Part shown: piece after piece, positions 9,746 to 24,665 of the stretch | Numbering within the stretch: position 1 is the stretch's first letter | Layout: each line of letters opens with the position of its first letter | DNA from: a bacterium | GTDB taxonomy: Bacteria > Armatimonadota > UBA5829 | Direction of reading: 5' to 3' | Assembly: GCA_021371935.1 (NCBI GenBank) | Contig: JAJFVF010000019.1 | Coordinates: 250,009-314,008 of the forward strand | Length of the DNA stretch: 64,000 bases | The notes under the pieces: model-generated | Databases searched by the model: none | What the model was told of the DNA's origin: nothing | The model's input: only the letters and a program-made list of their open reading frames with translations | Translations under genes and position numbers: made by a program

Positions 9746-11953
9746 ATGCATAGAACGTTACTTATTATTGCTTGTGTTTTTTGCATGGTTTGTGTGGCTT
9801 CTGTAGCTATTGCAGATACAAGAACTGATCTGCAAGTCATCAAGTTATCCCTGCCTACTATTAAGACGAAGCTGGACAGGATCAAAGCCAGTGGGCAGGA
9901 TATCTCATATCCGATGGTGAGTTATACAGTGCTTGAGAATTTTGTGGATTATGCGCTGACGGATGTAGATACTAATGCCACGCTGGCGGCGACTGAACTG
10001 TCTGAACTACAGACGATTAAAAGCGACCTTGATCAGCAGATTGCCCAGGCTTTAGCGGGCAGCCTGGTTTTTCCCATACTCCCCAGGTGGACAGGAGACA
10101 CAAGACCTGTAATAAGCGGCGGTTCATTTATGGCTCCAACCATTACTTTCGGCAGCGATTGTCGCGAAATACGCCCGGTCTTCTTTACCGGATTTGGTCA
10201 CTTTGGGCAGGTTAGAGCGGATATGGAAAAGTGGCCGAATTATGGGATCAATATGGTCCAGTTTGAAATTGGACCATGGAGCCTATATGGTGATGGAACA
10301 GAGATAAACCCACCTGACCTGACGCCTGTCCAAAGCATTAAGGCAGACCTGGACAGAGCACAGAAGGCCGGTGTAGCAGTGAATCTTCTTATAAGCCCGC
10401 ATTATTTTCCTGCTTGGATGAAAGCTAAATATCCAGAACTTGTGAAGTCTCGCAGCGGGTTTATAGCGTTCTGTATCCATGCGCCTTCCGGTCAGGAATT
10501 TCTGAAGGAGTATATCACGGAATTGATAACTCCGATCAAAAATCATCCTGCCCTTCACAGCATTTGTTTGACGAACGAGCCGGTGAATATCGAGGAGCCC
10601 TGCGAATATGCGACTGCTGCGTTCCATACATGGCTGTGGAAGCGCCATGTGAGCGTAGACCTCCTTAACAGACGTTGGGGGACGAACTATGCCAGTTTTG
10701 ATGACATTACAATTCCAATTTCGGGTTTGAGTGCAGTTACCACACCTATGGGACGTTGGGCTGATTATGTGCGGTGGAACCAGGAATACTTCGCTGGCTG
10801 GCATAAGATACTTGCCGATGCCGTTCATGCCGTAGCTCCCAATCTGCCAGTTCACGCAAAGGTTCAGGATTGGACTTTTGGCAACAAAAGCCAGATGATC
10901 TGTGGCAACGATCCATATTTATATGCAGGCATATCCCAGATCAACGGCAATGATGGTTCCAATTACTACGTCGATCCATCTCCCTACTTTAACGAATGGC
11001 TGGGCTGTTACATGTATGCCGATCTCCAGCGGTCTATGAAAGATGCTCCGGTCTTTAATTCTGAAAACCATATGGTTGGGGATTACAGTCTCGAAACTGT
11101 GTTGTGGAGGCATATGCGTACTGCTCTTTGGCAGGAGGCAATCCATGGGCAGAGCGCAACAACTCTTTGGGTTTGGGAGCGTTCCGGCACTCCCGACAGC
11201 CAGATATATGGCCATTATATGTACCGGCCTTTATGCACAAAAGCAGTTGGTATTGTAAACTGTGATCTGAACCGTGCCGCGAAAGAGGTTACCGCTTTGC
11301 AGAGTCTTCCCGAGCAGGTCGACCTCCTTTATTCCACAAGTTCGCTGATTTGGGATACCGGCAACGAATATGACTACCTTACGATGCGGGCATATAATGC
11401 TTTGGTTTTCAGCAAGGTGAGAACAGGCTTTATATCTGAAAGGCAGTTGGAAGACGGGATTCTGCCGAAGGCACCGGTGCTCGTGGTCCCGAATGCCAAA
11501 CACCTGTCAAACGCAGCGTTTGCGACACTCAAAAATTACACAGGACGCATAATATATCTGGTCAATTCATCTCTTCTGGCTTATGACGAGTATGACAAAC
11601 CCAGATCTGAAACATTGAACGCTACTGTCCTTTCCTTCACTTCAGCGTCTGCTGCAAATATAACGGCACTATACAAGGTCCTGTCACCTCAACTCATTTC
11701 CTGGGGGATAAAACCCAAGATTACAATGACGGATACGGCAGGCAATCAGTTAATGGCGGTTGAGTATCTGGAAGCCAGTACCGCTGACGGCATAATCGTG
11801 GATATGTGCAACTACTATGATGGGTCTGTCAATGTGAGATTGTCCAGAGATGGTGAGCCTGTTACTGCCGTTGATGTTCTTACCGGCGAAACCGTGACTG
11901 GAATTATTACGCTCGAAACGCTTGAGTTCCGGTTGCTGAAGATTGCCAACTGA
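9746..11953 (+). CDS. Secreted GH42-like glycoside hydrolase
   Basis: This 735-residue exported enzyme has a clan GH-A TIM barrel most like the family 42 beta-galactosidases. The signal peptide is clear (LLIIACVFCMVCVASVAIA). The probable acid/base is E278 in CLTNEPVN and the probable nucleophile is E440 in PVFNSENHM. FPAWMKAKYPELV is a typical GH42 stretch. The C-terminal half holds a glutamine-amidotransferase-like trimerisation domain (LVVPNAKHLSNAAFATLKNY). An N-terminal helical segment (about 25-100) precedes the barrel. Start: ATG 9746 has AGGAG 7 nt upstream and gives a clean signal peptide; ATG 9725 overlaps the previous stop and is less likely. A plant or algal galactoside or similar sugar is the likely substrate. 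Confidence 0.8.
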   Translation: MHRTLLIIACVFCMVCVASVAIADTRTDLQVIKLSLPTIKTKLDRIKASGQDISYPMVSYTVLENFVDYALTDVDTNATLAATELSELQTIKSDLDQQIAQALAGSLVFPILPRWTGDTRPVISGGSFMAPTITFGSDCREIRPVFFTGFGHFGQVRADMEKWPNYGINMVQFEIGPWSLYGDGTEINPPDLTPVQSIKADLDRAQKAGVAVNLLISPHYFPAWMKAKYPELVKSRSGFIAFCIHAPSGQEFLKEYITELITPIKNHPALHSICLTNEPVNIEEPCEYATAAFHTWLWKRHVSVDLLNRRWGTNYASFDDITIPISGLSAVTTPMGRWADYVRWNQEYFAGWHKILADAVHAVAPNLPVHAKVQDWTFGNKSQMICGNDPYLYAGISQINGNDGSNYYVDPSPYFNEWLGCYMYADLQRSMKDAPVFNSENHMVGDYSLETVLWRHMRTALWQEAIHGQSATTLWVWERSGTPDSQIYGHYMYRPLCTKAVGIVNCDLNRAAKEVTALQSLPEQVDLLYSTSSLIWDTGNEYDYLTMRAYNALVFSKVRTGFISERQLEDGILPKAPVLVVPNAKHLSNAAFATLKNYTGRIIYLVNSSLLAYDEYDKPRSETLNATVLSFTSASAANITALYKVLSPQLISWGIKPKITMTDTAGNQLMAVEYLEASTADGIIVDMCNYYDGSVNVRLSRDGEPVTAVDVLTGETVTGIITLETLEFRLLKIAN

Positions 11954-12099
11954 TGAAGTATATGATGGCTTCTAGAAACCCATAAGAGCATTTTCATGCT
12001 GCCGTATTGTCAGGACTGATGATAGATGTGTGGGAATATGAGTCTTGCGGCAAGCTTTGTTTACTCAAGAATAATTAAACTGTCCCTATCGTCTGAAAG

Positions 12100-12129
12100 T
12101 TGACAGTAAGTATGGCAGCATGATATGTT
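12100..12129 (+). promoter_or_regulatory. Sigma-70-type promoter of the RiPP operon
   Basis: TTGACA (12100-12105), an 18-nt spacer and TATGTT (12124-12129, 4 of 6 consensus). The ATG at 12125 lies inside the -10 box, so it cannot be the start on this transcript. That supports ATG 12167 for the first gene. All following genes to 22407 are on the same strand, and the only wide gap is 15880-16221. Confidence 0.5.
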
Positions 12130-12166
12130 ATTTCTGGGTGGTTTTTATCGAGGGTTGCTGGTGGGA

Positions 12167-13015
12167 ATGTGTAAATCAAGTGCCTTTTGGTCATGCAATT
12201 GTCTTCGGTTTGTTGTAATTTTGGCTTTAGCAGTCGTTCTGTTGGTGGCATCTCCACATGGTGTACTGTCCACAGGTAAACACAAGCAGGAGAAGAAAGA
12301 AAAAATTGCGAGAAAAGTCTATATAACGAACGATCCTGTCTCTGCAGGTGTGTTCAATGAGCTGACTAAGGCAGTTATATCGTCGACTAAAAACCTGGAG
12401 GATTTGAGTTTTCAAGTCAAGATAGTGAAATCAAATCCGAAAGTGCTTCAAAAGCTCAAGAATGATTTTATGCCGTTGAAAGGGATGCGAAGGGCGTCAG
12501 TCTGGTATAAACCCCCCAAGATCAAAGTTGAAGTCAAAGTCGGGTCCATGACACTGACCGAAAAATCCGATGGCATAAAAAGAAGTCTTTCTGTTCGGCC
12601 TCTGCGATACAAAAAAAATGAATCGTCGGACGAGAGAGAGTCTGCCAGCCTACTGGATGCATATTTTGGACTGTTGACAGAGAATATCTGGCAAAATTAT
12701 GTCGTCAAATCGGCATCCAGGGCGCAAGATGGCCGTTCGGAGAATTGCACAGTGTGTTTTTCGCTTGGAAACAAAACCAGCGGCAGTCATAACTGCGTCA
12801 TAGACATGTCGGATATGAAGCTGCTCAAGATAAACCAGTATGATTCATCCGGTGTGTTGCAGGCTAAGTATGTGTATTCCGATCACAAACGATATTGCGA
12901 CGGATTTTGGGTTCCAAGACACATAGATATATATAATGCAAAATCGGAACTGGCTGCAAGTGTTGAATATGTAGACATAAAAGTGAATGCCGGCATACGG
13001 GATTCAATTTTCTAA
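12167..13015 (+). CDS. LolA-like / outer-membrane lipoprotein-sorting-type secreted protein
   Basis: This 282-residue exported protein has a long hydrophobic signal segment (FVVILALAVVLLVASPHG). The body is beta-rich with features of LolA/LolB-type folds: SVWYKPPKIKVEVKVGSMTLTEKSDG, then LLKINQYDSSGVLQAKYVYSDHKR and DGFWVPRHIDIYNAKSELAASVEY. That half-barrel pattern is used by lipoprotein carriers and by MucB/RseB-like sensors. I do not recognise a precise family. It is the first gene of the RiPP operon, 9 nt before the B2-like gene. Its role there is unknown; periplasmic handling of a hydrophobic peptide would fit but is speculation. ATG 12167 is chosen from the promoter position. Confidence 0.45.
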   Translation: MCKSSAFWSCNCLRFVVILALAVVLLVASPHGVLSTGKHKQEKKEKIARKVYITNDPVSAGVFNELTKAVISSTKNLEDLSFQVKIVKSNPKVLQKLKNDFMPLKGMRRASVWYKPPKIKVEVKVGSMTLTEKSDGIKRSLSVRPLRYKKNESSDERESASLLDAYFGLLTENIWQNYVVKSASRAQDGRSENCTVCFSLGNKTSGSHNCVIDMSDMKLLKINQYDSSGVLQAKYVYSDHKRYCDGFWVPRHIDIYNAKSELAASVEYVDIKVNAGIRDSIF

Positions 13016-13024
13016 AAACAGCCG

Positions 13025-13462
13025 ATGGGTTTGGAACCACTTGATTCAAATATAGAAGAGACCTTGAAACGAATGGTCGTGCATGAGGGGGCTAGGGGAG
13101 TTCTCCAGAGACTGGGCTGCCGAGTGGGGCTTGTGCTATTTGCGGCTGCACGCCTGGTTATTCCCGCTTTTCGCAAACAACCATGTTATTGGCGAGTCTG
13201 CCTGATATGGTGCACCCTCAACGAGGAACAAAGAACAGCTGTGCGGATCAATATATCTCTGGACGTAAGCAATATGCACTGCGTCTGCGGGCATATATGG
13301 CTGACAAAAGATGGAGAAGCAATAGGCGAGAAGAGGGATGCTTCGAGAAGGCCGTTGAAACTGGTGGGGTCGTGCGGTCGTGTCGATTATTGGATCGATA
13401 CGCCTGCTTGCAGCATCGATTACCGGCTGACCGATTTGTCTGAAGGCAGGTTCTTACATTAA
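13025..13462 (+). CDS. Lasso-peptide B2-like (transglutaminase-fold) protein, candidate leader peptidase
   Basis: This 145-residue protein resembles Transglut_core3/lasso B2 proteins, cysteine proteases that remove RiPP leader peptides. The order fits: a helical N-terminus with VGLVLFAAARLVIPAF, a candidate nucleophile in KQPCYWRVCLIWC, a variable strand region (VRINISLDV), then a His motif GHIWLTKDGEAIGEK like the usual 'AHAWVE.DG'. The match is weak. The Cys position is uncertain because several cysteines are clustered, and the third catalytic residue is not obvious. Context supports the call: a PqqD-like protein (the B1 partner) lies 2 kb downstream and no other leader peptidase is in the operon. 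The stop codon overlaps the next ATG by one base. Confidence 0.5.
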   Translation: MGLEPLDSNIEETLKRMVVHEGARGVLQRLGCRVGLVLFAAARLVIPAFRKQPCYWRVCLIWCTLNEEQRTAVRINISLDVSNMHCVCGHIWLTKDGEAIGEKRDASRRPLKLVGSCGRVDYWIDTPACSIDYRLTDLSEGRFLH

Positions 13463-14430
13463 TGGCAAACATATTTCTAACCCCCCATTGCGGTCGGAAT
13501 TGCGCTTTCTGCTTTGCGAAAGAAGGCCCATGGTCGGATGAATATCAGGCGCGTGAACTGAGCCTGGATGAAGTCGAATGCATTCTGGAGACGGGCGACA
13601 GGTCTGTATGCACTGAATGCGGCTTCATAGGCGGAGAACCACTGACCTACAAAAACCTCTCCAAGGTCATCAGAATGTGTCTTGACAGAGGGATTCGTGC
13701 AAAGGTGTTCACCAGCGGCAGTTGCGTATGTCCCGAGGGTATGGACGAATTCGTCGGTGTCGAAAACCTGAGCTTCATTGTAAACGTCAGCCCACCTCAC
13801 ACATATGAAGAGACTCGAATGAAGAACCTTGATGCTTTTTTCAAAACATTTGGAGGAGCATGCACACTGTCATATACTCTTTCGCCGTCACAGCCCGATG
13901 GACGATATTTGGTGGACTATATTCTCAAATATGGACTATCCAAGCATATCCGGGTGGGCATCGCGGTCCCTATGATAGGCGGGGGAAATGAGCACGTTGC
14001 GCCAACCAAATTCAGGGAAGCTGCGCTGGCATTTATCGATCTTGCACGATATGCCGCAAGGTTCAATATATCTTTGGGCACGGACTGCGGGTTCGTGGCG
14101 TGTATGTTTACGGAGCGCGAGATCGGTGAACTGCAGTGGCTGGGAGCAAAACTCATATTCACATGCGGTCCTGTGATGGATATCGGTCCCGATTATGAAG
14201 TGTGGCACTGTTTCCCGCTGGCCAGGATAATGCGGGTCAAAATGGAAGACAACAAGATGCCGATTGGTGCTTTCAAAGACGCGGCACAGACCTTGAGGGA
14301 GCATTTCAGAGCAGGTGTCTTCGAGAGATGCTCAATATGCGACTTTCGCAGGAAAGGCATATGCATGGGAGGGTGTTTGGGCCACATCATCCCGAGCGTC
14401 AATGAAGGAATCTCTGCTTTGTCCGGTTAG
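13462..14430 (+). CDS. Radical SAM/SPASM-type RiPP-modifying enzyme A
   Basis: This 322-residue radical SAM protein has its cluster motif at the very N-terminus: C10, C14 and C17 (HCGRNCAFCF). It is followed by the SAM-binding FIGGEPLTYKNL. The C-terminus has a cysteine-rich auxiliary region (FERCSICDFRRKGICMGGC), as in SPASM or twitch enzymes that carry extra Fe-S clusters and act on peptides. It shares layout and many motifs with the next gene (SFIVNVSPP against TWVVNVNPP), so the two are tandem paralogues. There is almost no sequence before the motif, and hence no leader-binding domain; the separate PqqD-like protein probably supplies substrate recognition. Confidence 0.85.
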   Translation: MANIFLTPHCGRNCAFCFAKEGPWSDEYQARELSLDEVECILETGDRSVCTECGFIGGEPLTYKNLSKVIRMCLDRGIRAKVFTSGSCVCPEGMDEFVGVENLSFIVNVSPPHTYEETRMKNLDAFFKTFGGACTLSYTLSPSQPDGRYLVDYILKYGLSKHIRVGIAVPMIGGGNEHVAPTKFREAALAFIDLARYAARFNISLGTDCGFVACMFTEREIGELQWLGAKLIFTCGPVMDIGPDYEVWHCFPLARIMRVKMEDNKMPIGAFKDAAQTLREHFRAGVFERCSICDFRRKGICMGGCLGHIIPSVNEGISALSG

Positions 14431-14462
14431 GCTGAAAGAGAATTATTCGGGGGAGAGACTAG

Positions 14463-15452
14463 ATGCCGAATTTGATCCTGACTACAAAATGCAATCTGGA
14501 CTGCTCATATTGCTTTGGACGCGATGTGATGCAAAAGGGCGGCAACAAGATCGCCGACATGTCGATGGAAATCTTCCATGAGCTGAAAGCATGGATAATC
14601 CGGGAACGTCAGAAGATCACAAGCGTACATCTGATGGGCGGTGAGCCGACACTAAACCATAATCTCGTCGAAATGGCATGCTCTCTCCTTGATGAAGGCC
14701 TTGCTGTCTCAATCTTCTCTAACTGCTCAACGAGCGAAAGCCCCGTCTGCGCGCAGTGGCTCAAAGATAAAAATGTGACCTGGGTGGTGAATGTGAACCC
14801 ACCCGAGTCAAGAACCGCCCAACAGGACAGCTTCCTGAGAGAATCACTCGAGACTCTGGGAGAGGCAGTGGTCATCACACTCAACATTCTCCCTCAGCAG
14901 ATGGATTATGAATGGACGCTCGACCTGATTGCCCAGTATGGCCTGGCGAGGAAAATAAAGATCGGGTTTGTCCTGCCGACGCTCAGTAAGACGAATGAAT
15001 ATCTTTCGGATGAGGACTATCCGGTTGTCGCCGAACGTGTTGTCGAGTTCGCACGGCTTTGCAACAGGTTTGACGTGAAACTGGAGTATGAATGTGGAGT
15101 GCCCTGGTGTTCATTTACCACCGAGCAGCTCGGGGCGCTGTGGGCGTGCAATTCCTCATTCTTTTCGTCATGTGATTCCCGGCTGGATATATTGCCCGAC
15201 GGTCGTGTGATATACTGTCTGCCTCTGGCGGAGCTTTGCTCTGTGGCTTACAGTAATTTCTACTCATATAGAGAGGCAAAAAAATGGTTCGAGGGCAGCC
15301 TGTCTCCATACAGGCCGTTGGGCTCAAAAACTGAATGCCCGAGCTGCCGTTTGATGATTCAAGGACCATGCAGAGGCGGATGCCTAGCTCGCACGTTGTC
15401 GGGTGCGAAAAATATTGAAATAGGAGGCAGAACTATAAGCAATGTCTCATGA
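14463..15452 (+). CDS. Radical SAM/SPASM-type RiPP-modifying enzyme B
   Basis: This 329-residue paralogue of the preceding gene has C10, C14 and C17 in KCNLDCSYCFGR, the GGEPTLNHNL motif, and a C-terminal auxiliary cluster (TECPSCRLMIQGPCRGGC) with further cysteines upstream (CNSSFFSSCDS, VIYCLP). GGGGGAG lies just before ATG 14463. Its end overlaps the PqqD-like gene by 11 nt, which suggests coupled synthesis of enzyme and recognition protein. Paralogous enzymes in one operon may modify different residues of the same core peptide; that is inference. Confidence 0.87.
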   Translation: MPNLILTTKCNLDCSYCFGRDVMQKGGNKIADMSMEIFHELKAWIIRERQKITSVHLMGGEPTLNHNLVEMACSLLDEGLAVSIFSNCSTSESPVCAQWLKDKNVTWVVNVNPPESRTAQQDSFLRESLETLGEAVVITLNILPQQMDYEWTLDLIAQYGLARKIKIGFVLPTLSKTNEYLSDEDYPVVAERVVEFARLCNRFDVKLEYECGVPWCSFTTEQLGALWACNSSFFSSCDSRLDILPDGRVIYCLPLAELCSVAYSNFYSYREAKKWFEGSLSPYRPLGSKTECPSCRLMIQGPCRGGCLARTLSGAKNIEIGGRTISNVS

Positions 15453-15708
15453 AGTTGCTCCAAATGCTACTTGGAAAGAACTGGACGGTTCCATCGTTGT
15501 TGTTAATACTGTTTCAGGAGCGTATTACTGCCTGAACGAAAGTGCCGCGGTGATCTGGCAGGATGTGGCCGCGGGCAAAGACAATAATTCCATTATCGAG
15601 CATTTGTCGGGGGTCTATGAAGTCGATCCGACAATGGTTGCAGCCGATCTGCAAAAATCAATCGACTATTGGATACAGGAAAACCTGATTGTCGCAAAAG
15701 ATGCTTAA
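15442..15708 (+). CDS. PqqD-like RiPP recognition element protein
   Basis: This 88-residue protein matches the PqqD family (lasso B1-like). These are winged-helix peptide-binding proteins that hold the leader of a precursor for its modifying enzymes. The features are LDGSIVVVNTVSGAYYCLNESAAVIW, which carries the 'YYxLNxxAxxIW' signature, followed by helices with IIEHLSGVYEVDPTMVAADLQKSIDYWIQENLI. It overlaps radical SAM B by 11 nt and sits 27 nt before the precursor gene. That is the usual position for the recognition element. Confidence 0.92.
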   Translation: MSHEVAPNATWKELDGSIVVVNTVSGAYYCLNESAAVIWQDVAAGKDNNSIIEHLSGVYEVDPTMVAADLQKSIDYWIQENLIVAKDA

Positions 15709-15735
15709 ACCACTCTAGAGAAAAGGAGGAAAGGG

Positions 15736-15879
15736 ATGGAGATTAACGAGGAAAGCAAGACTGTAAAAAAGAAGTATGTCAGCCCTGAAACAGTCAAGCA
15801 TGAGCCGCTTGACATTGTTCGCGGTTCCGGCAGCTATTCGAGCCTGTACTACACATATTATTACTACTATTATTACTAG
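15736..15879 (+). CDS. RiPP precursor peptide with C-terminal poly-tyrosine core
   Basis: This is a 47-residue peptide with a perfect AGGAGG (15724-15729) 6 nt before ATG 15736. The first half is a charged leader rich in Lys and Glu. It holds a Y14-V-S-P17 element like the 'YxxP' recognition motif in leaders of PqqD/B1-dependent RiPPs. The probable core is SGSYSSLYYTYYYYYYY, ending directly at TAG 15877. Nine of the last ten residues are Tyr, written with mixed TAT and TAC codons, so the run is not just a simple DNA repeat. The core has no Cys, Met or Trp and no Gly-Gly cleavage site; cleavage near G30-S31-G32 is a guess. I know of no described RiPP class with such a core. The peptide was found by direct translation between the PqqD-like gene and the hairpin array. 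Confidence 0.85.
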   Translation: MEINEESKTVKKKYVSPETVKHEPLDIVRGSGSYSSLYYTYYYYYYY

Positions 15880-15920
15880 CCCGTATTATGGAAACAGTTC
15901 AGTTTTACGGGAGCGAATAT

Positions 15921-15985
15921 GGCTCGGTGGGAACCTCGCCCTCCCGGCAAGCTCAATATTGGGAGGGTGAAGCTCCTGCTGAGCC
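15921..15985. repeat. Long inverted repeat (hairpin family 2), copy A
   Basis: Two 25-nt arms (15921-15945 and 15961-15985) pair almost fully if G-U pairs are allowed, around a 15-nt loop. The left arm begins GGCTCGG and ends CCTCCC; the right arm mirrors it. The element is followed by TAAAATTC. A second copy lies at 52677-52739, with 23 of 25 left-arm and 19 of 25 right-arm positions identical. It lies 41 nt after the stop of the poly-Tyr precursor and could end or protect that message, although no T-run follows. Confidence 0.75.
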
Positions 15986-16013
15986 TAAAATTCCAGGGTA
16001 ACTGAGCTTTCTC

Positions 16014-16081
16014 GTATTATGCGCTTTCCGCATAATACAGGTCTCCGAGAGCATTATTCACGTTCCTTGTGAATAATGCGG
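16014..16081. repeat. Paired-hairpin repeat, copy 2
   Basis: This is the second copy of the 68-bp element at 7962-8029. Here both stems are perfect: GTATTATGCG (16014-16023) pairs with 16029-16038, and GCATTATTCAC (16051-16061) pairs with 16069-16079. The joining sequence GGTCTCCGAGA is unchanged. The element stands directly after the long hairpin and before two more palindromes. Confidence 0.8.
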
Positions 16082-16110
16082 GCTAGAGGGCAGAATGGCA
16101 GTGAGTATGT

Positions 16111-16169
16111 CCGCCATATGGCGGGCGGCTTGACAGTCGTTTGGTGATCGTGTGCAAACACGATCACCA
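16111..16169. other. Two further palindromes before the HprK-like gene
   Basis: CCGCCATATGGCGG (16111-16124) is a perfect palindrome. TGGTGATCGTG (16142-16152) pairs perfectly with 16159-16169 across a 6-nt loop, giving an 11-bp stem. Neither is followed by a T-run, so a simple terminator is not clear. A TTGACA at 16130-16135 and another at 16212-16217 have no convincing -10 box. With the two repeats upstream, the 342-nt gap 15880-16221 holds five hairpins and no supported gene. Confidence 0.6.
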
Positions 16170-16221
16170 TATTTGCTGGTACGTCAAAAGCGTATCCTAC
16201 CACTTATTTTGTTGACAGACA

Positions 16222-17199
16222 ATGGTATACAATACTGCTGACCATACAATTGTGATGTGCCTTGCCGGCGGCAGGTTTCGGATCAGGACTTCATGTGCGC
16301 AGACCATGCAAACTCTCGAGAATATGTTCAGCTATCACAGCACTGATGATATCGCGGAGGCGGGTTTCGAGCATGAGGTATGCATACGTCATCGTCGTGT
16401 CGATCAGGACATAATCGATCTGCTGGATAACGCGAATGATCCATGGCTTGGACGGACGGCCATAGACATACCGGTTATGGCTGTAAGGGACTCCGATAAG
16501 GGCATTGCACTAAAAATTGGTGATGAAGCGTATTCATATACCGATATCGGACGGCACAAGACTGTATGCTATCTGAAGCCTGAGTGCAGCGGTGATGCAT
16601 CGATATGCCCACAGCCGTGGGTCTATCTGCTGCCGATCTTGCAGGCTCTGCTGGCATTATACGGCATTTATGTCATACACTCCGCTGCGGTGACATATGA
16701 AGACAAGGCTCTGCTGCTGCTCGGCGAGTCAGGCGCTGGAAAGACGACCATGTGCCTGGCTCTGGCGCGCGCAGGAATGGCTTATATGGGCGATGACCTC
16801 GTGGGGCTGCAGCGGCACGAAAATACGATTTATGCGCATGCCATCCTGCTCAGACCCAAGCTGGTTATAGATGAAAGCGGCGAAAAGTGCACGGTCGATG
16901 CGGTCGCCGATGAGAGACTTGCCTGCATGCGATTCGCTCCGGTGGGAGCGCTGGTCCATCTGCAGCGAAGTGTGCCGGAGTTGAAGCAGACCGCGAGAAT
17001 GCAGAGACCGCAAATGATGTCGCAGCTTTTGTCTATGGGCAATTCACCTGTGATGACGAATGATATGAAGCAGTGGTTCGATACTGTTTTTGAACTGTCG
17101 CAGCAGGTGCCGGGATGGATATGGTCGCCTCCATTTCCTGATGCGGATAATATCGATGCAGTTTTCGGACACATGCGGAGGATGATGAATATTGCGTGA
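16222..17199 (+). CDS. HPr kinase-like ATP-binding protein of RiPP operons
   Basis: This 325-residue protein has a C-terminal HprK/P-type P-loop domain. It shows HSAAVTYEDKALLLLGESGAG with Walker A at 168-176 (GESGAGKTT), then the conserved acidic pair in YMGDDLVGL (191-192). The N-terminal half (1-130) is beta-rich and not recognised. HprK homologues are common in lasso and related RiPP loci, where some phosphorylate a residue of the peptide. Here, tyrosine or serine hydroxyls of the core would be possible acceptors, which is inference. ATG 16222 has no good ribosome binding site, and the true start could be ATG 16255. The end overlaps the next gene by 8 nt. Confidence 0.8.
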   Translation: MVYNTADHTIVMCLAGGRFRIRTSCAQTMQTLENMFSYHSTDDIAEAGFEHEVCIRHRRVDQDIIDLLDNANDPWLGRTAIDIPVMAVRDSDKGIALKIGDEAYSYTDIGRHKTVCYLKPECSGDASICPQPWVYLLPILQALLALYGIYVIHSAAVTYEDKALLLLGESGAGKTTMCLALARAGMAYMGDDLVGLQRHENTIYAHAILLRPKLVIDESGEKCTVDAVADERLACMRFAPVGALVHLQRSVPELKQTARMQRPQMMSQLLSMGNSPVMTNDMKQWFDTVFELSQQVPGWIWSPPFPDADNIDAVFGHMRRMMNIA

Positions 17200-18601
17200 A
17201 CCCGGCCTGGCAGGGATATCGACACTTCTTGCGTCGAGAGATTGCGTCTTTCATAATGTCGGCATACAACAAGTTCTGGAGAACTTGCCATATTCTATCG
17301 CGCCGGCTATCGAATACCTCGCTCAGGCAGAAGCTGATATGGCATATAGGCTCATAGACAGCATAAATAAATTCTGCCCGTATTTGCAGCGGCCATATTC
17401 GACCCAACAGGACATTTCCGGCAGGACATTTCCCATTTTCGATGATCTGCGCAGTGAAATGGAACTGTTTCTTGCGGCTGTGCAAAATAAAATTTCTTAT
17501 TGCAGCGCACATGAGCGGCATGTGTTGACCAAAAGGCTTGCCCGTTTCCTGGGGGTCAGGCAGGAGGTGCGTGAAATTGTCCGTGCTGCTGTGGGAGATG
17601 ACGCCGCGGACGAGTTTGATGCAGCAGTGGCCTCAGAAGAGTCCAAAGCCATGGACCGGCAGTTGATGCTTTTCCTGTCATACAGGTGCAATCTGGATTG
17701 CCCGTATTGCTTTGCAAAGGGCAATCAGGGCGATATGCCGCTTGACATGGCTGTTGAACTTATTGATTGGGCAAAAGAAAACGGCGCAACTGTCATAACT
17801 TTTCTGGGCGGCGAACCCACAATATATCCCCACTTCATTGATGTTTTACATGAGCTAAAATGCAGGGGGCTATACACATTCTTTGCGACAAACCTGCTGG
17901 CTGAACCGGATGTGATCCATGCACTGGAAAAAGATTTCGTGCGCTCGCTGGTGGTTCATGTCGCCCACAAAAATGTATACAAACCGGGACAGTGGGATAT
18001 GTTGAATCGCAATCTCGCGGATGTGCTATCCAAGGGTTTGGCGGTTTCGCTGCGCGCGAATGCGTATGCCCATGGGCACGACTGGTCGCACTTATTTGAG
18101 CTTACTGATAAATTCGGCGTAAAGGAAGTGCAGTATGCGCTTACGTTTCCCGGAGGAGACGGCTCCAATGCGTTCGTAAAGAGGGATGACCTGGCCGCGA
18201 TGATACCCGAAGTGATGGAGATGCAGCGGCTTTGTGATGAAAAAGGGCTGCACCTGATAATAACAAAACCTCTGCCGCCATGCCTCTTCCCGCTACACAT
18301 GCAAACGAGAATTGCCAGGCTTCACGAATATCAGATCTCATGTACGGCGCCATGCGACGGGTATTCCCACAACCTTTGCGTGCTGCCGGACGGTGGTTTT
18401 GTGCCATGTATGGCTATGCTGGATGTAAAATATCCAGCGACTGAGCCACATGATTACGACCGGATTGCGGATTTCTGCAAATCTCAACTGCAGCCTTGGC
18501 TGGATAAGCCGCTGTTTGAGGATTGCGTGGGCTGCTTCCTTTTTGCAAGAAAAATCTGTCAGGGCAGCTGCATCGGGCATAAGCGGGAATTGGGTCTATG
18601 A
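17192..18601 (+). CDS. Radical SAM/SPASM enzyme C with N-terminal helical domain
   Basis: This 469-residue protein has C166, C170 and C173 in YRCNLDCPYCFAKG, then TFLGGEPTIYPHF. The C-terminal auxiliary Cys region includes SCTAPCDGYSHNLCVLPDGGFVPC and FEDCVGCFLFARKICQGSC. The first 155 residues are a helical domain (AIEYLAQAEADMAYRLID, then LTKRLARFLGVRQEVREIV), which may be a substrate or partner-binding module. TTG 17192 is the start: GGAGG lies about 10 nt upstream, and the next in-frame ATG (residue 50) would cut the N-terminal domain. It overlaps the HprK-like gene by 8 nt and the next gene by 4 nt (ATGA). Confidence 0.85.
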   Translation: MREPGLAGISTLLASRDCVFHNVGIQQVLENLPYSIAPAIEYLAQAEADMAYRLIDSINKFCPYLQRPYSTQQDISGRTFPIFDDLRSEMELFLAAVQNKISYCSAHERHVLTKRLARFLGVRQEVREIVRAAVGDDAADEFDAAVASEESKAMDRQLMLFLSYRCNLDCPYCFAKGNQGDMPLDMAVELIDWAKENGATVITFLGGEPTIYPHFIDVLHELKCRGLYTFFATNLLAEPDVIHALEKDFVRSLVVHVAHKNVYKPGQWDMLNRNLADVLSKGLAVSLRANAYAHGHDWSHLFELTDKFGVKEVQYALTFPGGDGSNAFVKRDDLAAMIPEVMEMQRLCDEKGLHLIITKPLPPCLFPLHMQTRIARLHEYQISCTAPCDGYSHNLCVLPDGGFVPCMAMLDVKYPATEPHDYDRIADFCKSQLQPWLDKPLFEDCVGCFLFARKICQGSCIGHKRELGL

Positions 18602-19596
18602 GCTTATCCAATGTCGACTGGCGGCAGGTGCTTGGTCTGAGGGTCTCGCTGCCGAAGAAAATAGATATCGAGCCGACGAACACATGCAACCTTGCATGTC
18701 CGTTGTGCCCACAGTCTTCATCGCACACGCGAAAACGGGGTTTCATGACCTTGGAGACCTTTGGAAATGCGATTTCGAGCTTTGACGGACGGGTATCCGA
18801 GGTGTCTCTATATCTTCATGGAGAGCCGTTCCTGAACCCGGACCTGCCCAAATTTGTGAAGGCGCTCTCTGAAGCCGGCATACAAACCACTATAGCCACG
18901 AACGGCCTGGCGATAACCGATGAATGCTGGCGGGGCGTGCTCGATGAAGGAGTCAATGCCGTACGGTTTTCGATGGACCTGATAAGCCGGCAGGGGTTTC
19001 TGGCATATAAGGGTCTGGACTCATATGATGAAGCGCGCAGCAGGCTCGACGAACTGATCGAGATCAAACTGGGTCAGAAGTCTGATGCTCACCTGGGGAT
19101 TCGCACCATATACAGTGGGCAGTCGCGTGAGGAACTGCTATCGTTCCTGGAATACTACTTCAAGAAGCCCGGAATAGACGATATCTGGTTTACGCGCCCA
19201 TGCCCATGGCCTGGATCAAAAGACCCGGAGATGCTGGCGGGACGCCTGATGAAAGACAGGAAACAACCGTGCTCCATCGCCCGCGAGTCGATCAGTATCT
19301 GTTGGGACGGCAGCGTGGTGCCCTGCAGCTTCGATCATAATGCGGAGTATGTGTTGGGAAATGTCAATGATGCGCCGCTTGACGAGATCGTCAACTCGGA
19401 GGCTGCGCGCAGCTTCAGAAAACTGCATGCAAATGGCAGACGTGATAAAATACAGCCATGTGCAGACTGTATGCTCCCAAGATTTTTCTTTCGGGAGATA
19501 TCGCTGAACGGAGCGCTTTTCAACAAGGCAAATACTGCGCAGATGGATAATCTGTTTGGCCGTATAGAGGCGTTGATGCCCAAACTGGAGATTTGA
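18598..19596 (+). CDS. Radical SAM/SPASM enzyme D
   Basis: This 332-residue protein has C30, C34 and C37 in PTNTCNLACPLCPQ. SLYLHGEPFLNPDL replaces the usual GGEP as the SAM-binding motif. A SPASM-like tail follows: QPCSIARESISICWDGSVVPCSFD, then VLGNVNDAPLDEI and CADCMLPRFF. This layout (HGEPLLNP, WDG.VVPC, LGN..) is typical of SPASM proteins distinct from enzymes A-C. It therefore probably performs a different reaction. It is translationally coupled on both sides: ATGA upstream, and 1 nt from the ABC transporter gene. Confidence 0.87.
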   Translation: MSLSNVDWRQVLGLRVSLPKKIDIEPTNTCNLACPLCPQSSSHTRKRGFMTLETFGNAISSFDGRVSEVSLYLHGEPFLNPDLPKFVKALSEAGIQTTIATNGLAITDECWRGVLDEGVNAVRFSMDLISRQGFLAYKGLDSYDEARSRLDELIEIKLGQKSDAHLGIRTIYSGQSREELLSFLEYYFKKPGIDDIWFTRPCPWPGSKDPEMLAGRLMKDRKQPCSIARESISICWDGSVVPCSFDHNAEYVLGNVNDAPLDEIVNSEAARSFRKLHANGRRDKIQPCADCMLPRFFFREISLNGALFNKANTAQMDNLFGRIEALMPKLEI

Positions 19597-19597
19597 T

Positions 19598-21379
19598 ATG
19601 GCAGGCACTCGAATTCCAATCGGCATACCCGGAAGACCGATAGAAGACGACCGGTCGAAGTCGCCTTCGATAGAGACCCGCGACCTGCTCAGATGGGCAT
19701 GGAAACACTCGCGCTCGGAAGTGCCGCTGATTGTCCTCGGCATGATATTGGCGCTTATCATATCGTCTCTGTCGGGGTTGGTGCTGATTAAAGCACGCGA
19801 GTTTATCGAAGTTGTCAGTTCGGGAGTGGGACCCAGACACGGCCTGAACCTGGCTGTCATTCTGAGTGTTATATTTCTTGGGCGCTCGCTGCTGGGTATG
19901 GTGGCCACGATGCTGGGTTCCTTTGCATCGGCGAATATCCGTAAAAACCTGGAATGGGCATGTCTCGACCACCTTTCGTTTCTTCCATATGAGAGAATGG
20001 CTTCCAAGTCCGGCGGGCTGGTTAGCGCTGCGCTTTTCAATGAAATCCCTATGATGGCGGATATCCCGGTAATGATTACCCGCTCGTTTGCCAGAGCGCC
20101 GTTCACCATACTGATACTGTGCATCATACTCTACAAGAACCTGCCTCTGATGGGAATATTGGTCCTGCTGGCTACGCCTCTTGTTTTTATCGGGATGTCG
20201 ACCCTGGCAAAAGCAGCGAAAAATGCAAGCGCACGGGCTCACGATGCGATTTCGCTTCTATATGCGAGAATGAGCGAATATCTCGGAGGTATGCGGACGA
20301 TTCGCACACTTGGTCTGATGGACTGGTATACACGAAAGCTGAAGGCGCTGTCAGTCGAGATTGCGCAAAAGATGAAAAGGACCATCTTCGTTACCTCGCT
20401 GCAGGGAGCCGTCCAAGAGGGCATTTCGCTGATACTGTTGATGTTTGCTCTATGGTGGTGCGCGGTGTGTGTCAACATGGGCCTGATCTCACTAAGCAAA
20501 GCTCTGCTTATTCCTGTGGCGCTGATTATGATAAAGGATGAAGCCCTCGCGATATCTGGAGGCATTATCGGGCTGCGCAGGATCGAAGGTGCTGCCGCGC
20601 GTATACAAAACCTCCTTTCAGAACGGCAGTCTGGAAATGGACAATTGAACCCGAAAGAACCGGTCGAAGAAGTGAGGCTGTGTAATATCACGTTTGGATA
20701 TGAGGGCTGCGGGCTGATCCTTGAAGATGTGAACCTGGAACTGAGCTCAGGCGGTATCACCGTGCTGCTTGGTGAAAGTGGTGCGGGCAAATCGACTCTG
20801 TGCGACATTGTGCTCGGGCTGCGGCAGGCGAAAAGCGGTGAGGTCAGATTTAATGGACACCTGCTTCGGGAATTGTCTGAGGAATATGTGATGAGCCAGA
20901 TCGCTCTCGTGGATCAACTGCCGTACCTCTTCGAGGGTACAGTGCGCGAAAACCTGCTTTTCGGAGATATGACTGCCACGGACAGCCGGGTCTGGGAAAT
21001 GCTGGAAGCTGTGAGTTCCGCGAATTTCGTCTCTGAAATGGATGGAAAGCTGGATGCACATATTACCCCGATGGGGTCGAACCTGTCGATGGGGCAGAGA
21101 CAGAGACTGGTGCTGGCGAGGTCACTGCTGCGCCAGCCGCATCTGCTTGTGCTCGACGAGTTTACCAGTGCTCTCGACCCGGCAAACGAGGATTCGATCA
21201 TGGATACCATATCGAGTCTGAGCAAAGATATTATTGTGCTTTGCACTACGCATCGAATGTCTGTGGCACGCAGAGCTGCGCATGTATATTGTCTGAGGGA
21301 AGGGCAAATTTCAGCGGTACCATCAGATGATTTTGCGCTGTGGGCATATGGCCGGACAGGCCGCGCAGGGGAGCGTTGA
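19598..21379 (+). CDS. ABC exporter (permease-ATPase half-transporter) of the RiPP operon
   Basis: This 593-residue protein has an N-terminal membrane domain (about 40-330; hydrophobic runs VPLIVLGMILALIISSLSGL and IPVMITRSFARAPFTILILC) and a C-terminal ATPase. Walker A GESGAGKST is near residue 392, the signature LSMGQRQR near 496, Walker B LLVLDEFTSALDP, and the switch His is in CTTHRMS. There is no C39 peptidase domain, so leader removal must be done by another protein, plausibly the B2-like gene product. It is the expected exporter for the mature tyrosine-rich peptide. GGAG lies before ATG 19598. Confidence 0.9.
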   Translation: MAGTRIPIGIPGRPIEDDRSKSPSIETRDLLRWAWKHSRSEVPLIVLGMILALIISSLSGLVLIKAREFIEVVSSGVGPRHGLNLAVILSVIFLGRSLLGMVATMLGSFASANIRKNLEWACLDHLSFLPYERMASKSGGLVSAALFNEIPMMADIPVMITRSFARAPFTILILCIILYKNLPLMGILVLLATPLVFIGMSTLAKAAKNASARAHDAISLLYARMSEYLGGMRTIRTLGLMDWYTRKLKALSVEIAQKMKRTIFVTSLQGAVQEGISLILLMFALWWCAVCVNMGLISLSKALLIPVALIMIKDEALAISGGIIGLRRIEGAAARIQNLLSERQSGNGQLNPKEPVEEVRLCNITFGYEGCGLILEDVNLELSSGGITVLLGESGAGKSTLCDIVLGLRQAKSGEVRFNGHLLRELSEEYVMSQIALVDQLPYLFEGTVRENLLFGDMTATDSRVWEMLEAVSSANFVSEMDGKLDAHITPMGSNLSMGQRQRLVLARSLLRQPHLLVLDEFTSALDPANEDSIMDTISSLSKDIIVLCTTHRMSVARRAAHVYCLREGQISAVPSDDFALWAYGRTGRAGER

Positions 21380-21381
21380 GA

Positions 21382-22407
21382 GTGGCTGAGGGCGCTTTGA
21401 TACATGAGGGGCTGAAGGCGTTTGTCGATGGACGTCGAGGACTCATCCCGGGCGATGGGGTTGACTGGCGAATATTACTTGATAAAGCATCGGCTATGCG
21501 CATCGGTCCGGTCCTGCTCGAAGTGTTCGATAATTCCATGCTGCCGCAGGAGGCACTGGATCGATGGAAGAATGAGCGGCAGATCACTTTTGTCCGTTAT
21601 GCCAGGGCTGCTCAGGCCGCTGCACGGCTGTCCGGCATTCTTGATGAATCAGGCATTGCGCATGTGTTCACGAGGGGGCTGGTCACCGCTCATACGCTTT
21701 ATCACAACCCCGCATTGCGTATCATGACGGATGTCGACATGCTCATATCCAGACAGGATGTCGACGGTTTTCAAGAGTGCCTGACAAGACACGATATTCA
21801 CCCCGAAAAGCTGCTGCGCAGTCAGATAGTGTACTCTATCGACGGTATGGTCTTTGAGGTGCACTGGTCACTGACCAGCATCAAACGGTTCAAATCGGTT
21901 GGGCTGACAGACGCTTTTATGAATGTGCGCATGCCTATGGATACGGAATACGGCCGAATCCGGCGACTGCCGAACGGAGCAGAGCTGAGCATTGCGCTGG
22001 CGCACAGTTTTCTGCATCATGACATGGAAGAACCGCGTCAGCTTCTCGATATTGCCCTGCTCATGTCCTCTGAAGAAACCGACTGGCGATGGCTTGGCGA
22101 ATGGAGCCGGAAAGTAGGTTTTGCGCGTGCAACAGGATTTATTCTTCAGTTTGTGAATAAAAGCTTTGGCCTTGAGCTGGATGATACTCTGCGGCGTGAG
22201 TTTTCCGAATCGACCGTGCCTGCCGAAAGAGTGTTCCAGGCCTATTACTGTGCACTTTTTGAGGAAGAATATCTGAGCCATTATCTGATAAAACAAGCCA
22301 ATTTGGTCACCATGTCTGAGACGATGGGGGACAAAATGCGTCAGATAATCAGAAACTTTTCATCGGACCGCATCAGGCTGCTGGGCAAATTTGTCAGGAA
22401 ATCGTAG
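21382..22407 (+). CDS. Nucleotidyltransferase-family protein (RiPP-associated)
   Basis: This 341-residue protein matches the nucleotidyltransferase family often found in lasso and HprK-containing RiPP clusters. Key features are FTRGLVTAHTLYHNPALRIM followed by TDVDMLI, the metal-binding Asp pair. Further on are VFEVHWSL and a helical C-terminal part with ALAHSFLHHDMEEPRQLLDIALL. The GTG start at 21382 lies 2 nt after the ABC stop and has GGGGAG 8 nt upstream; an in-frame GTG at 21340 lies inside the ABC gene and is less likely. The reaction is unknown; transfer of a nucleotide to the peptide or to a tailoring intermediate is possible. Its 3' end overlaps the convergent radical SAM gene by 14 bp. 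Confidence 0.8.
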   Translation: MAEGALIHEGLKAFVDGRRGLIPGDGVDWRILLDKASAMRIGPVLLEVFDNSMLPQEALDRWKNERQITFVRYARAAQAAARLSGILDESGIAHVFTRGLVTAHTLYHNPALRIMTDVDMLISRQDVDGFQECLTRHDIHPEKLLRSQIVYSIDGMVFEVHWSLTSIKRFKSVGLTDAFMNVRMPMDTEYGRIRRLPNGAELSIALAHSFLHHDMEEPRQLLDIALLMSSEETDWRWLGEWSRKVGFARATGFILQFVNKSFGLELDDTLRREFSESTVPAERVFQAYYCALFEEEYLSHYLIKQANLVTMSETMGDKMRQIIRNFSSDRIRLLGKFVRKS

Positions 22408-23305
22408 ACTCATCCACACGGTGGCCGGGCGCGCGAATCGAATGCTTGCCGCTGAGCAGGATCGTCTCCATGTCGGCTATTTTGTTAATTTCGTCCGCAT
22501 ACTTGTGCTCAAGCACCGGCTCGAGATATGTCCGACCAAGTTCTTCTTCCATACCACAGCACACCCTGCTGAAAACGCATTTGCCGCACGATTCACCAAT
22601 TGCCGGAACGACCTGCCTGTCATATATCTCCTGGCAGTGATACTCCAGCCCTCCGACCACGCAAAAAGGAAATCCGCTCAATACAGGCCATATCCCGGCG
22701 TCTAAAAGCTTGGGTATACAAGCCCCTATAGCGGATATGGAATCGCGATAGTCAGCATTGCCCGCATATTTATATACAACTCGATCCGGCCTGTATTTGA
22801 TTATCTCCTTTGTGATTGCGCTGACATGCTCTATATTGCCGCCAAAGACCGGCACGCTCAGAAACAAAAACAGTTCATTGATCTGGAAACCGCGTGGTCT
22901 GACCTGCTTTATCGACCGAATCGCGCGGCAGGCATCACTATATGCGCCGCTTCTTCCGGCAATATCGTCGTGTGTTTTGGCGTCCGGGCCCAAAATATCG
23001 ATCTCATATAGAAGTATGCCGGCATGCACAAGCTCCATCAGACGGTCGTTCTGGAGAAGAGGCGTGCCGGTCGTCTTCAGCTTGACTCTGCGAAGTCCCC
23101 ATATGGAGGCCGTCTTCAACGCCTTGATGACGTGGGGTGAGCCTGCCGCGTCACCCTCGCCGAAATACAGGTTGCATGGTGGACGGGTATCGTTAATTTC
23201 GGAGACGATTGACGTCAGGTCGATATATTTGCCCCCACGCTGAGAGCAAAATTCGCAGTTGTTGGGACAGACTGCCCCTGTGTGGATGAAGTCGTATTTG
23301 TTCAT
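22394..23305 (-). CDS. Radical SAM protein converging on the RiPP operon
   Basis: This 303-residue radical SAM protein has C13, C17 and C20 in AVCPNNCEFCSQRGG and a late Cys group (GESCGKCVFSRVCCGMEEELGR) that may hold another cluster. LYFGEGDAAGSPHVIKAL occupies the place of the GGEP motif. It is 13 nt downstream of the next radical SAM gene on the same strand and shares that transcript. I do not recognise its subfamily. Its proximity to the precursor and its convergent layout suggest, but do not prove, a role with the RiPP. Confidence 0.75.
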   Translation of the reverse strand: MNKYDFIHTGAVCPNNCEFCSQRGGKYIDLTSIVSEINDTRPPCNLYFGEGDAAGSPHVIKALKTASIWGLRRVKLKTTGTPLLQNDRLMELVHAGILLYEIDILGPDAKTHDDIAGRSGAYSDACRAIRSIKQVRPRGFQINELFLFLSVPVFGGNIEHVSAITKEIIKYRPDRVVYKYAGNADYRDSISAIGACIPKLLDAGIWPVLSGFPFCVVGGLEYHCQEIYDRQVVPAIGESCGKCVFSRVCCGMEEELGRTYLEPVLEHKYADEINKIADMETILLSGKHSIRAPGHRVDESTIS

Positions 23306-23318
23306 AGGTTCTCGATTG

Positions 23319-24665
23319 TCAGGTCATTGCGGTCGCGCCGTGTTCTTTGGTGATCGTTTCGGCAAAGACTTTTGCCATGGCAAGCTCGGCTTCGCTGAAA
23401 GTGTCATTTTTCAACACGAAATACGGCGGATCCTGCATATAAGTTATGCCTAGACGTGCGGCATCGGTGCGTAACTGGGTGCCGTTGAGCACACACAGCA
23501 AATTGATAAAGAGCTTGTCGACATTGAGCGAATATACGAAGCGAACCCCTTCGAGAAACGAGAAAAAGTTGTCACCCGCAAGCCCCAGCAGCAAATATAC
23601 GCTCACATGTTTGTTGAGAGCCTGCAGAAGTCTGACACCGTTGATAAAGCGGTCACGCACAAATGTGCGGTTAATTGCTGTAAGCGCTGACGGGTTGATG
23701 CTCTGCAAGCCAACGTCGAATAGAGTGAAATGCTTCAGCAGGCCGACATTCTTATCATTGATAAGCTCTGCATATATCTCCACGGAACACGTGTACTTTC
23801 CGCAGCCTGCCACATGTTTCGAGAGAATATTACTGATCTGCTCGAGCCGTGAGATATCGTTGTTGCCGACAATCGGGTCGAGGAAATGGAAATGTCTGAC
23901 GCCGTTTTTCACTGCATCTGCTATCTCTTTTTCGACCCTCGAAATGGAAAAATAGCGGACGCCAGCATATTTTTTGCCCTCAAAACAAAAAGTGCATCTG
24001 AAACGGCACCCTCTGGATGTCTCGATCATGATTCCCAGGTGATTGTGCTTGCCTATCCTGATCTCATGAGCAAGATATGGTGAGGGTATCGAGTCGAGAT
24101 TGTCGATGAGCATACCGGGTGGATTGGATACTTGCCTGTCACCTTTACGAAACGAAATTGCCGGGATGTCATCCAAGCTCGACATATCGTCAAATATATA
24201 AGACCGGAGCAGGCGTCGAAAAGTCTCTTCTCCTTCTCCATCCACGCAGATATCGACTTCGGGATGTTCTTTGAGGTAATCGATCTCTGAGTTCGTGATC
24301 TCCTGGCCGCCGATGATGACAACGACTTTTGGCAGAAGCCGTTTAAGGATTCGTATCGTCTCCAGCGTGCGCCGGATGTTCCATATGTTGCATGAAAAGC
24401 CTGCGATGCTCGGTCTGGTGAGAGCAATCCTCAATGCGGCAAGCACGGGACTTATGCGGACTCCCATCTCGATTATGTTTATGTTCAGTCTGTCTCTGAG
24501 GTCCGGGTCCTGCAAGGCATATAACTTTAGGTAATACAGCGCCAGGGCATAGTTTCTTTCGATATTCAGAGAAATCAACGCTATTCTTGCCCGTTTGAGC
24601 GTGGTGTCTGACAATTCGTTCACCCATCGTTGCAACTTACCACTTGTAAACTGTATACCGATCAA
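23319..24665 (-). CDS. B12-binding-domain-type radical SAM protein
   Basis: This 448-residue protein has an N-terminal Rossmann region like cobalamin-binding domains (RARIALISLNIERNYALALY, then VVVIIGGQEITNSEIDYLKEHPEVDI and DGEGEETFRRLL). A radical SAM core follows with C220, C224 and C227 (SRGCRFRCTFCFEG). The classical B12 motif DxHxxG is not seen, so cobalamin may bind without a protein His ligand or not at all. Such enzymes methylate or rearrange unreactive carbons, including in natural product pathways. The start is uncertain: TTG 24665 has almost no leader after the promoter at 24685-24714, so GTG 24623 may be the real start. Confidence 0.8.
   Translation of the reverse strand: MIGIQFTSGKLQRWVNELSDTTLKRARIALISLNIERNYALALYYLKLYALQDPDLRDRLNINIIEMGVRISPVLAALRIALTRPSIAGFSCNIWNIRRTLETIRILKRLLPKVVVIIGGQEITNSEIDYLKEHPEVDICVDGEGEETFRRLLRSYIFDDMSSLDDIPAISFRKGDRQVSNPPGMLIDNLDSIPSPYLAHEIRIGKHNHLGIMIETSRGCRFRCTFCFEGKKYAGVRYFSISRVEKEIADAVKNGVRHFHFLDPIVGNNDISRLEQISNILSKHVAGCGKYTCSVEIYAELINDKNVGLLKHFTLFDVGLQSINPSALTAINRTFVRDRFINGVRLLQALNKHVSVYLLLGLAGDNFFSFLEGVRFVYSLNVDKLFINLLCVLNGTQLRTDAARLGITYMQDPPYFVLKNDTFSEAELAMAKVFAETITKEHGATAMT

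Follow-up and report, generated by a model that had tools for sequence, protein, structure and literature searches.

A candidate RiPP cassette pairing a tyrosine-repeat precursor with several radical SAM enzymes

The window analysed here is a stretch of 64,000 nucleotides from a bacterium of the Armatimonadota (lineage UBA5829; assembly GCA_021371935.1, contig JAJFVF010000019.1, positions 250,009 to 314,008 of the forward strand), and on its plus strand, at 13025-22407, lies a cassette in which one small precursor gene stands among nine protein genes. The reading favoured, with moderate confidence, is that the cassette makes a ribosomally synthesised and post-translationally modified peptide (RiPP) and that its radical S-adenosylmethionine (SAM) enzymes would modify, probably by cross-linking, LY(Y) repeats in the precursor. 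Gene content and order, the precursor family, codon-level selection and conserved catalytic motifs, all read from sequence, form the basis of this proposal. A scan of genomes with an alignment of one of the radical SAM proteins, rB, returned 31 loci, 28 of which carry the cassette, each with a leader-bearing, Tyr-rich short open reading frame (ORF). In all 28 the radical SAM genes adjoin a conserved precursor with a leader and a RiPP recognition element (RRE).

The precursor peptide and its family

The window precursor (15736-15879) is a peptide of 47 residues, MEINEESKTVKKKYVSPETVKHEPLDIVRGSGSYSSLYYTYYYYYYY, which begins 27 nt after the PqqD gene and has GGAGG six bases ahead of its ATG; its 11 Tyr codons comprise six TAT and five TAC. 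A first-pass annotation of the window had described a Tyr ORF of this length directly behind a PqqD-like gene, and that description stands, the neighbouring protein passing the cut-off of PF05402. When about 5.8 billion proteins were searched with the single sequence, one relative came up, P0002, with 84% identity over 68% of the query and nine Tyr at its end. A precursor profile matched 192 proteins, and the family counts that follow are among the 120 of these matches that were listed. An 18-residue leader block, [Y/W]xxPxTxxHxxx[N/D]xVQGS, is common to 119 of the 120; the remaining protein, P0174, was called with its start inside the block and was left out of the column counts. Pro, Thr, His, Val, Gln, Gly and Ser of the block are invariant in the 119; the block opens with Tyr 118 times and with Trp once.

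Behind the leader block the cores consist mainly of Tyr (41%), Leu (18%), Thr (13%) and Ser (10%; 118 cores). Among 400 spacings between LY or LH motifs in 120 cores, 283 are of five residues, whereas 500 within-core shuffles averaged 11 such spacings and never exceeded 22. The cores hold 2 to 9 repeat units in 11 to 51 residues, and end in Tyr (59/120), His (46/120) or Arg (10/120). The annotation had taken poly-tyrosine as the hallmark of the peptide, and this has to be given up: because a run of at least six Tyr occurs in just one of the 120 listed relatives, the seven-Tyr run of the window, common to P0002, is an extreme variant, and what marks the family is a pentad repeat of LY(Y) that follows an invariant VQGS. 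One locus, L036, has two precursors in one cassette (11221-11388 and 11459-11623), the first with an odd core (ALYYRIEEEPKNLYYYHPCYYY) and perhaps a diverged copy.

Core composition also bears on the chemistry. In sactipeptides and ranthipeptides a core Cys is the thioether donor, and streptide (KxxxW) requires a core Lys and Trp. Cys is present in 9/120 cores and Trp in 4/120, so that neither a Cys nor a KxxxW site can be general. Asn, which belongs to the Aro-Xaa-Asn motif of strained cyclophane RiPPs (PMC9062424), is found in 27/120, and the window core has neither Cys nor Asn. The rarity of these residues argues against thioether, KxxxW or Aro-Xaa-Asn formation as the general reaction.

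The precursor codons are under purifying selection. The proportion of nonsynonymous differences (pN) was below that of synonymous differences (pS) in 378/378 pairs of 28 precursors from the window and 26 loci, a count in which the pairs are not independent and the protein-guided alignment leans to low pN; the precursors of L028 and L034, missed by the regular expression used, were not among them. The pair L012 and L018 is separated by about 30.5 synonymous and 5.5 nonsynonymous differences, and in L025, L026 and L030 the proteins are identical and the codon differences synonymous only.

It is hardly credible that the precursor is a chance ORF or a microsatellite. Five Tyr-rich short ORFs lacking the leader motif were found at unrelated places in the scanned loci, which gives a chance background, and the single-precursor search yielded one relative only. 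Set against these, the Tyr-rich ORF is kept at the same place in 28/28 cassette loci, the Tyr codons of the compared precursors are mixed (154 TAC, 135 TAT) and pN is consistently the lower, and on these three grounds the explanation was ruled out. The annotation had made its claim depend on just such a retained ORF and on its codon-level conservation, both of which were found.

The genes and enzymes of the cassette

The features of the cassette are as follows.

13025..13462, plus strand: B2-like protein, 145 aa, predicted leader peptidase
13462..14430, plus strand: radical SAM protein rA, 322 aa; PF04055 39.2 bits (cut-off 29.5)
14463..15452, plus strand: radical SAM protein rB, 329 aa; PF04055 40.8 bits
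15442..15708, plus strand: PqqD-like protein, 88 aa, predicted leader-binding RRE; PF05402 41.9 bits (cut-off 23.4)
15725..15729, plus strand: ribosome-binding-site-like GGAGG ahead of the precursor ATG, from sequence
15736..15828, plus strand: leader part of the precursor to the invariant Ser31; putative leader/core border
15829..15879, plus strand: Tyr-rich core GSYSSLYYTYYYYYYY and stop codon, from sequence
16222..17199, plus strand: HprK-like kinase, 325 aa; P-loop, PF07475 below cut-off
17192..18601, plus strand: radical SAM protein rC, 469 aa; PF04055 49.7 bits
18598..19596, plus strand: radical SAM/SPASM protein rD, 332 aa; PF04055 49.6 bits, PF13186 59.7 bits
19598..21379, plus strand: ABC exporter, 593 aa; PF00664 and PF00005 both above cut-off, no peptidase domain matched
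21340..22407, plus strand: NTP_transf_5 nucleotidyltransferase-like protein, 355 aa; PF14907 111.7 bits (cut-off 31.2); start codon uncertain, the listed ORF overlapping the ABC gene

All four radical SAM proteins named by the first-pass annotation pass the PF04055 cut-off; it had called them radical SAM/SPASM genes, and the SPASM model PF13186 is passed by rD alone. Among the best 25 of the 45 to 76 NCBIfam families matched per radical SAM protein no named maturase reached its cut-off, and the sole model to do so was TIGR04085, a SPASM domain model, in rD. In rA the CxxxCxxC motif and eight further Cys are conserved in 27/27 sequences, and rC has an N-terminal stretch of about 150 residues with no Pfam match. 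The model of rB (predicted local distance difference test, pLDDT, 92.1) has peptide-modifying SPASM enzymes as its nearest solved folds, SuiB being the best, and its best sequence match in the PDB is TigE (8vpo, E 2.5e-14).

PqqE is among both the sequence and the fold matches of rB. This, together with a PqqD protein and radical SAM enzymes with Tyr substrates, is what could be said for the peptide serving as the source of a small redox cofactor derived from Tyr, like PQQ or mycofactocin. That explanation is improbable, the core being made of 2 to 9 repeat units and not of one reactive pair, and an exporter being present in 24/28 loci.

The accessory proteins are of a kind known from lasso-peptide loci. 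The PqqD-like protein is the single PqqD match in the genome. The kinase, called HprK-like in the annotation, keeps that name by its P-loop and by conserved residues (K174, D191 and D192 in 36/36 family members, H153 in 31/36), and not by its domain matches, as PF07475 (Hpr_kinase_C) scores 21.8 bits against a cut-off of 33.3 and the NCBIfam model HprK_rel_A (E 2.5e-7) is also below cut-off. Its profile finds HPr kinases in the PDB (1jb1, E 4.9e-7), with P-loop proteins such as midasin scoring similarly. In the B2-like family Cys54, Asn76, His90 and Trp92 are invariant (26/26), 12/26 members match Transglut_core3 (best E 3.6e-6) and 4/26 lasso_biosyn_B2 (best E 1.9e-5); the window member has no sequence match in the PDB. 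In the NTP_transf_5 proteins D131 and D133 are conserved in 27/27. The annotation had also listed a nucleotidyltransferase and an ABC exporter without a protease, and both are borne out by the matches given above.

Could the locus be a lasso-peptide cluster that has lost its cyclase? Lasso peptides have an acidic acceptor residue in the core, and the 118 cores are almost without acidic residues (D 0.4%, E 0.0%). Three Asn-synthetase-like matches were found in the window's genome, the only one on this contig about 146 kb off, in agreement with the earlier statement that no lasso cyclase lies near, and no such match was found on the precursor contig in any of the 15 genomes, out of 28 carriers, for which that contig is known. 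The radical SAM genes recur in 28/28 loci, and the same cassette without a cyclase recurs across the loci examined. Although lasso loci are known to have genes for PqqD/B1, B2, a kinase and a nucleotidyltransferase as companions (PMC9266682 and PMC7533575), a lost cyclase is thus very improbable.

The borders of the cassette were drawn from the other loci. The annotation had begun the locus at 12167; a LolA-like gene there (12125-13015) was considered as a member and rejected, and because it has no counterpart in the other clustered loci the start was set at 13025. At the other end a minus-strand radical SAM gene (22394-23305), barely above the PF04055 cut-off, runs towards the cassette and shares 14 bases with the last cassette gene; a blastp comparison with ORFs from the other loci gave it a best E of 0.5, and it was not included. 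Also rejected was the minus-strand gene at 23319-24665, presumably a B12-type radical SAM protein, which has a distant match in L009 (5e-6) and weak matches to rD (0.02 and weaker) by blastp. Farther on, near 28034-30358 (minus strand), is a radical SAM/SPASM gene at 25211-26398 (minus strand); we take the former for an arylsulfatase, and the two are probably a sulfatase and its maturase. In GC content the cassette (51.2%) is close to its flanks (50.8% and 51.0%). The gap between precursor and kinase (15880-16221) is occupied by dispersed repeats with modules at 15891-16014 and 16013-16088, which recur genome-wide with at least 42 matches (40 of 231 candidates scored), and it contains perfect hairpins at 16014-16038, 16051-16079 and 16142-16169.

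Distribution and conservation of the cassette

Database searches with rB gave 88 matches including itself. Scanning genome contigs with a single protein query gave no match. The 28 cassette loci comprise, going by the titles of their records, 26 from Bacteroidales, one from Lentisphaerae and one from Spirochaetes; the remaining three of the 31 (L038-L040) are distant matches only, with neither cassette nor Tyr precursor. In profile searches over six frames, with profiles built from the same loci, rA, rB, PqqD, kinase and NTP_transf_5 were each present in 28/28, B2 and rD in 27, ABC in 24 and rC in 22, with all nine in 17/28. As far as genes were found, the window gene order is kept in 19 of the 26 Bacteroidales loci, rB lying farther downstream in the other seven (L019, L020, L022, L025, L026, L030 and L032). 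Rearranged genes and two kinases mark the loci of Lentisphaerae and Spirochaetes. Pairwise distances of the cassette proteins correlate (r 0.68 to 0.94), as shared host descent alone could bring about. In a tree of rB the window protein falls into a group with 20 further database proteins (support 0.86), next to the Bacteroidales clade.

Where carrier genomes were scanned whole (15), the precursor profile matched once in each, and twice, on one contig, in G304. Within the order of G291 it matched in 2 of 393 genomes, both known carriers. In the window's own phylum a convincing match was found in 1/291 genomes, that of the window itself, with three weak matches (E 0.002 to 0.09) to the leader part only. 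A precursor search of 60 other genomes around the window gave only three weak matches (E 0.18 to 0.69), and rB had one distant match among them, with 28% identity and in the same order (L009), where neither Tyr precursor nor cassette was found. L009 does hold an rA-like radical SAM in a 662-residue ORF and a 455-residue radical SAM-type protein (9949-13566, minus strand), and a 94-residue ORF there reads like PqqD by eye; it is possibly another RiPP system. No contig was confirmed as viral. Given this patchy presence across genomes, the cassette is of sporadic occurrence, and transfer from phylum to phylum is probable.

Several loci have further genes beside the cassette. A DUF6056 protein stands there in six loci and an FGE-sulfatase-type protein in four, each of the latter loci having two kinases, and a lipid A acyltransferase-type protein in five, lying farther off and on the other strand in L020 (one representative of all three kinds Pfam-scanned in each case). 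In L022, L025, L026 and L030 the lipid A acyltransferase-type gene follows NTP_transf_5 and a DUF6056 gene precedes it (Pfam for L022), and the product of these four cassettes might be lipidated. More generally, we conjecture that lipid, sugar or oxidation may be contributed by the recurrent accessory genes. Bacteroidales metagenome-assembled genomes repeatedly carry the loci, several of them with ruminant-gut samples named in the record titles; in such a setting a peptide that is secreted or displayed at the surface could play a part in competition or signalling.

Proposed maturation and comparison with known systems

The annotation had placed the locus beside lasso peptides, and lasso-type accessory genes are indeed present, but the closest described relative is the family of linear polyphosphorylated peptides (LPP) rather than lasso peptides alone. 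The lpp cluster of Paenibacillus alginolyticus encodes a discrete RRE, an HprK kinase, a nucleoside triphosphate (NTP) transferase, an MsbA-like exporter and LppS; its leader consensus is YxxPxVLxHQxIxFETxxS, its kinase LppK phosphorylates core Ser3, and deletion of its transferase made no change in a heterologous host (PMC13381572). The first four of these are found here, with RRE, kinase and NTP transferase in every cassette locus and ABC in 24/28. The leaders share YxxP and a His eight residues after the Tyr, with equal distances between Y, P and H; Ser stands one residue earlier here (+17 as against +18), and V, L, Q, I, F, E and T are not common to both.

By analogy with LPP, the invariant Ser would be the kinase site and the leader would end within VQGS. 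Maturation might then proceed as follows. By recognising YxxP in the leader, the PqqD protein would offer the precursor to the enzymes. In repeated rounds rA, rB, rD and, in most cases, rC would work on the Leu-Tyr-(Tyr) units, and the product we prefer has C-C or C-O bonds at the side chains of Tyr. The invariant Ser of VQGS, at +17 from the leader Tyr, would receive a phosphate from the HprK-like kinase, and the NTP_transf_5 protein would add to the Ser phosphate, a succession of kinase and nucleotidyltransferase-like protein for which pseudomycoidin offers a precedent (PMC9266682). Cleavage of the leader near VQGS would fall to the B2-like protein, and export of the product to the ABC protein.

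Several observations weigh against this scheme. The window's B2-like protein, to which the annotation gave that name, matches neither Transglut_core3 nor lasso B2, which some of its relatives do; its model, of medium confidence (pLDDT 76.4), found no protease in Foldseek or VIA-align, a result that speaks neither for nor against the fold, and the B2 alignment shows no evident Asp for a Cys-His-Asp triad. The genes for rC and ABC are missing from 6/28 and 4/28 loci respectively (assembly gaps are possible), and nearly all of the window's relatives are without the system. LppK left Thr or Tyr at the Ser3 site unphosphorylated (PMC13381572), and the kinase site proposed here is an analogy. That analogy is partial, because the term radical SAM is absent from PMC13381572 and because LPP has a signal-peptidase-like protease. 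The Leu/Tyr repeats, finally, could equally serve a modification other than cross-linking, in which case the same RiPP would be epimerised, oxidised, decarboxylated or subjected to excision at Tyr and leave a linear peptide with phospho-Ser. We regard this as possible but rather unlikely; the LY(Y) units keep strictly to a spacing of five and SuiB is the best fold match, both of which favour a defined side-chain reaction, but neither decides.

Cross-linking by radical SAM enzymes remains the preferred reading. LPP has the signal-peptidase-like LppS and variable C termini, whereas the cassette has a B2-like protein (27/28 loci), a core of Tyr repeats and as many as four radical SAM enzymes. With paeninodin-type lasso peptides and pseudomycoidin it shares B1/PqqD, B2, an HprK-like kinase with His-Lys-Asp-Asp and a nucleotidyltransferase-like protein (PMC9266682); here there is no Asn-synthetase-like cyclase and hardly any core Asp or Glu, and radical SAM enzymes stand instead. 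The poly-cyclopropylglycine RiPP of TvgB/TvgA likewise has a radical SAM/SPASM enzyme acting on a repeat core, but its repeats are TVGG without Tyr, it has one radical SAM enzyme, and no kinase or nucleotidyltransferase is listed in the portion of PMC9062424 used. TigE, the best PDB sequence match of rB, is also a radical SAM/SPASM enzyme on a repeat core. The SuiB (streptide) and CteB (ranthipeptide) maturases show 13% and 18% identity.

In agreement with the first-pass statement that no class with such a core was known, no description of such a peptide class was found in open-licence PMC literature, though one could exist elsewhere, and no such cluster is described in the parts of PMC10352776, PMC12710340, PMC13289728 and PMC7533575 that were used. 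We advance, tentatively, the idea of a new RiPP class with novel chemistry, spread in Bacteroidales and sporadic in other phyla, in which three or four radical SAM enzymes would stitch Leu-Tyr-Tyr pentads into a Tyr ladder, with a phospho-sugar head built on the invariant Ser at its start by kinase and nucleotidyltransferase-like enzyme. For radical chemistry at Tyr, the regular Leu-Tyr-Tyr units make a substrate code of unusual clarity, and since there are variants of 2 to 9 units and loci without rC, it is directly testable which enzyme acts where. The cassette joins the leader, kinase and nucleotidyltransferase machinery of lasso peptides and LPP with several radical SAM maturases, two sets of functions that stand apart in the literature examined.
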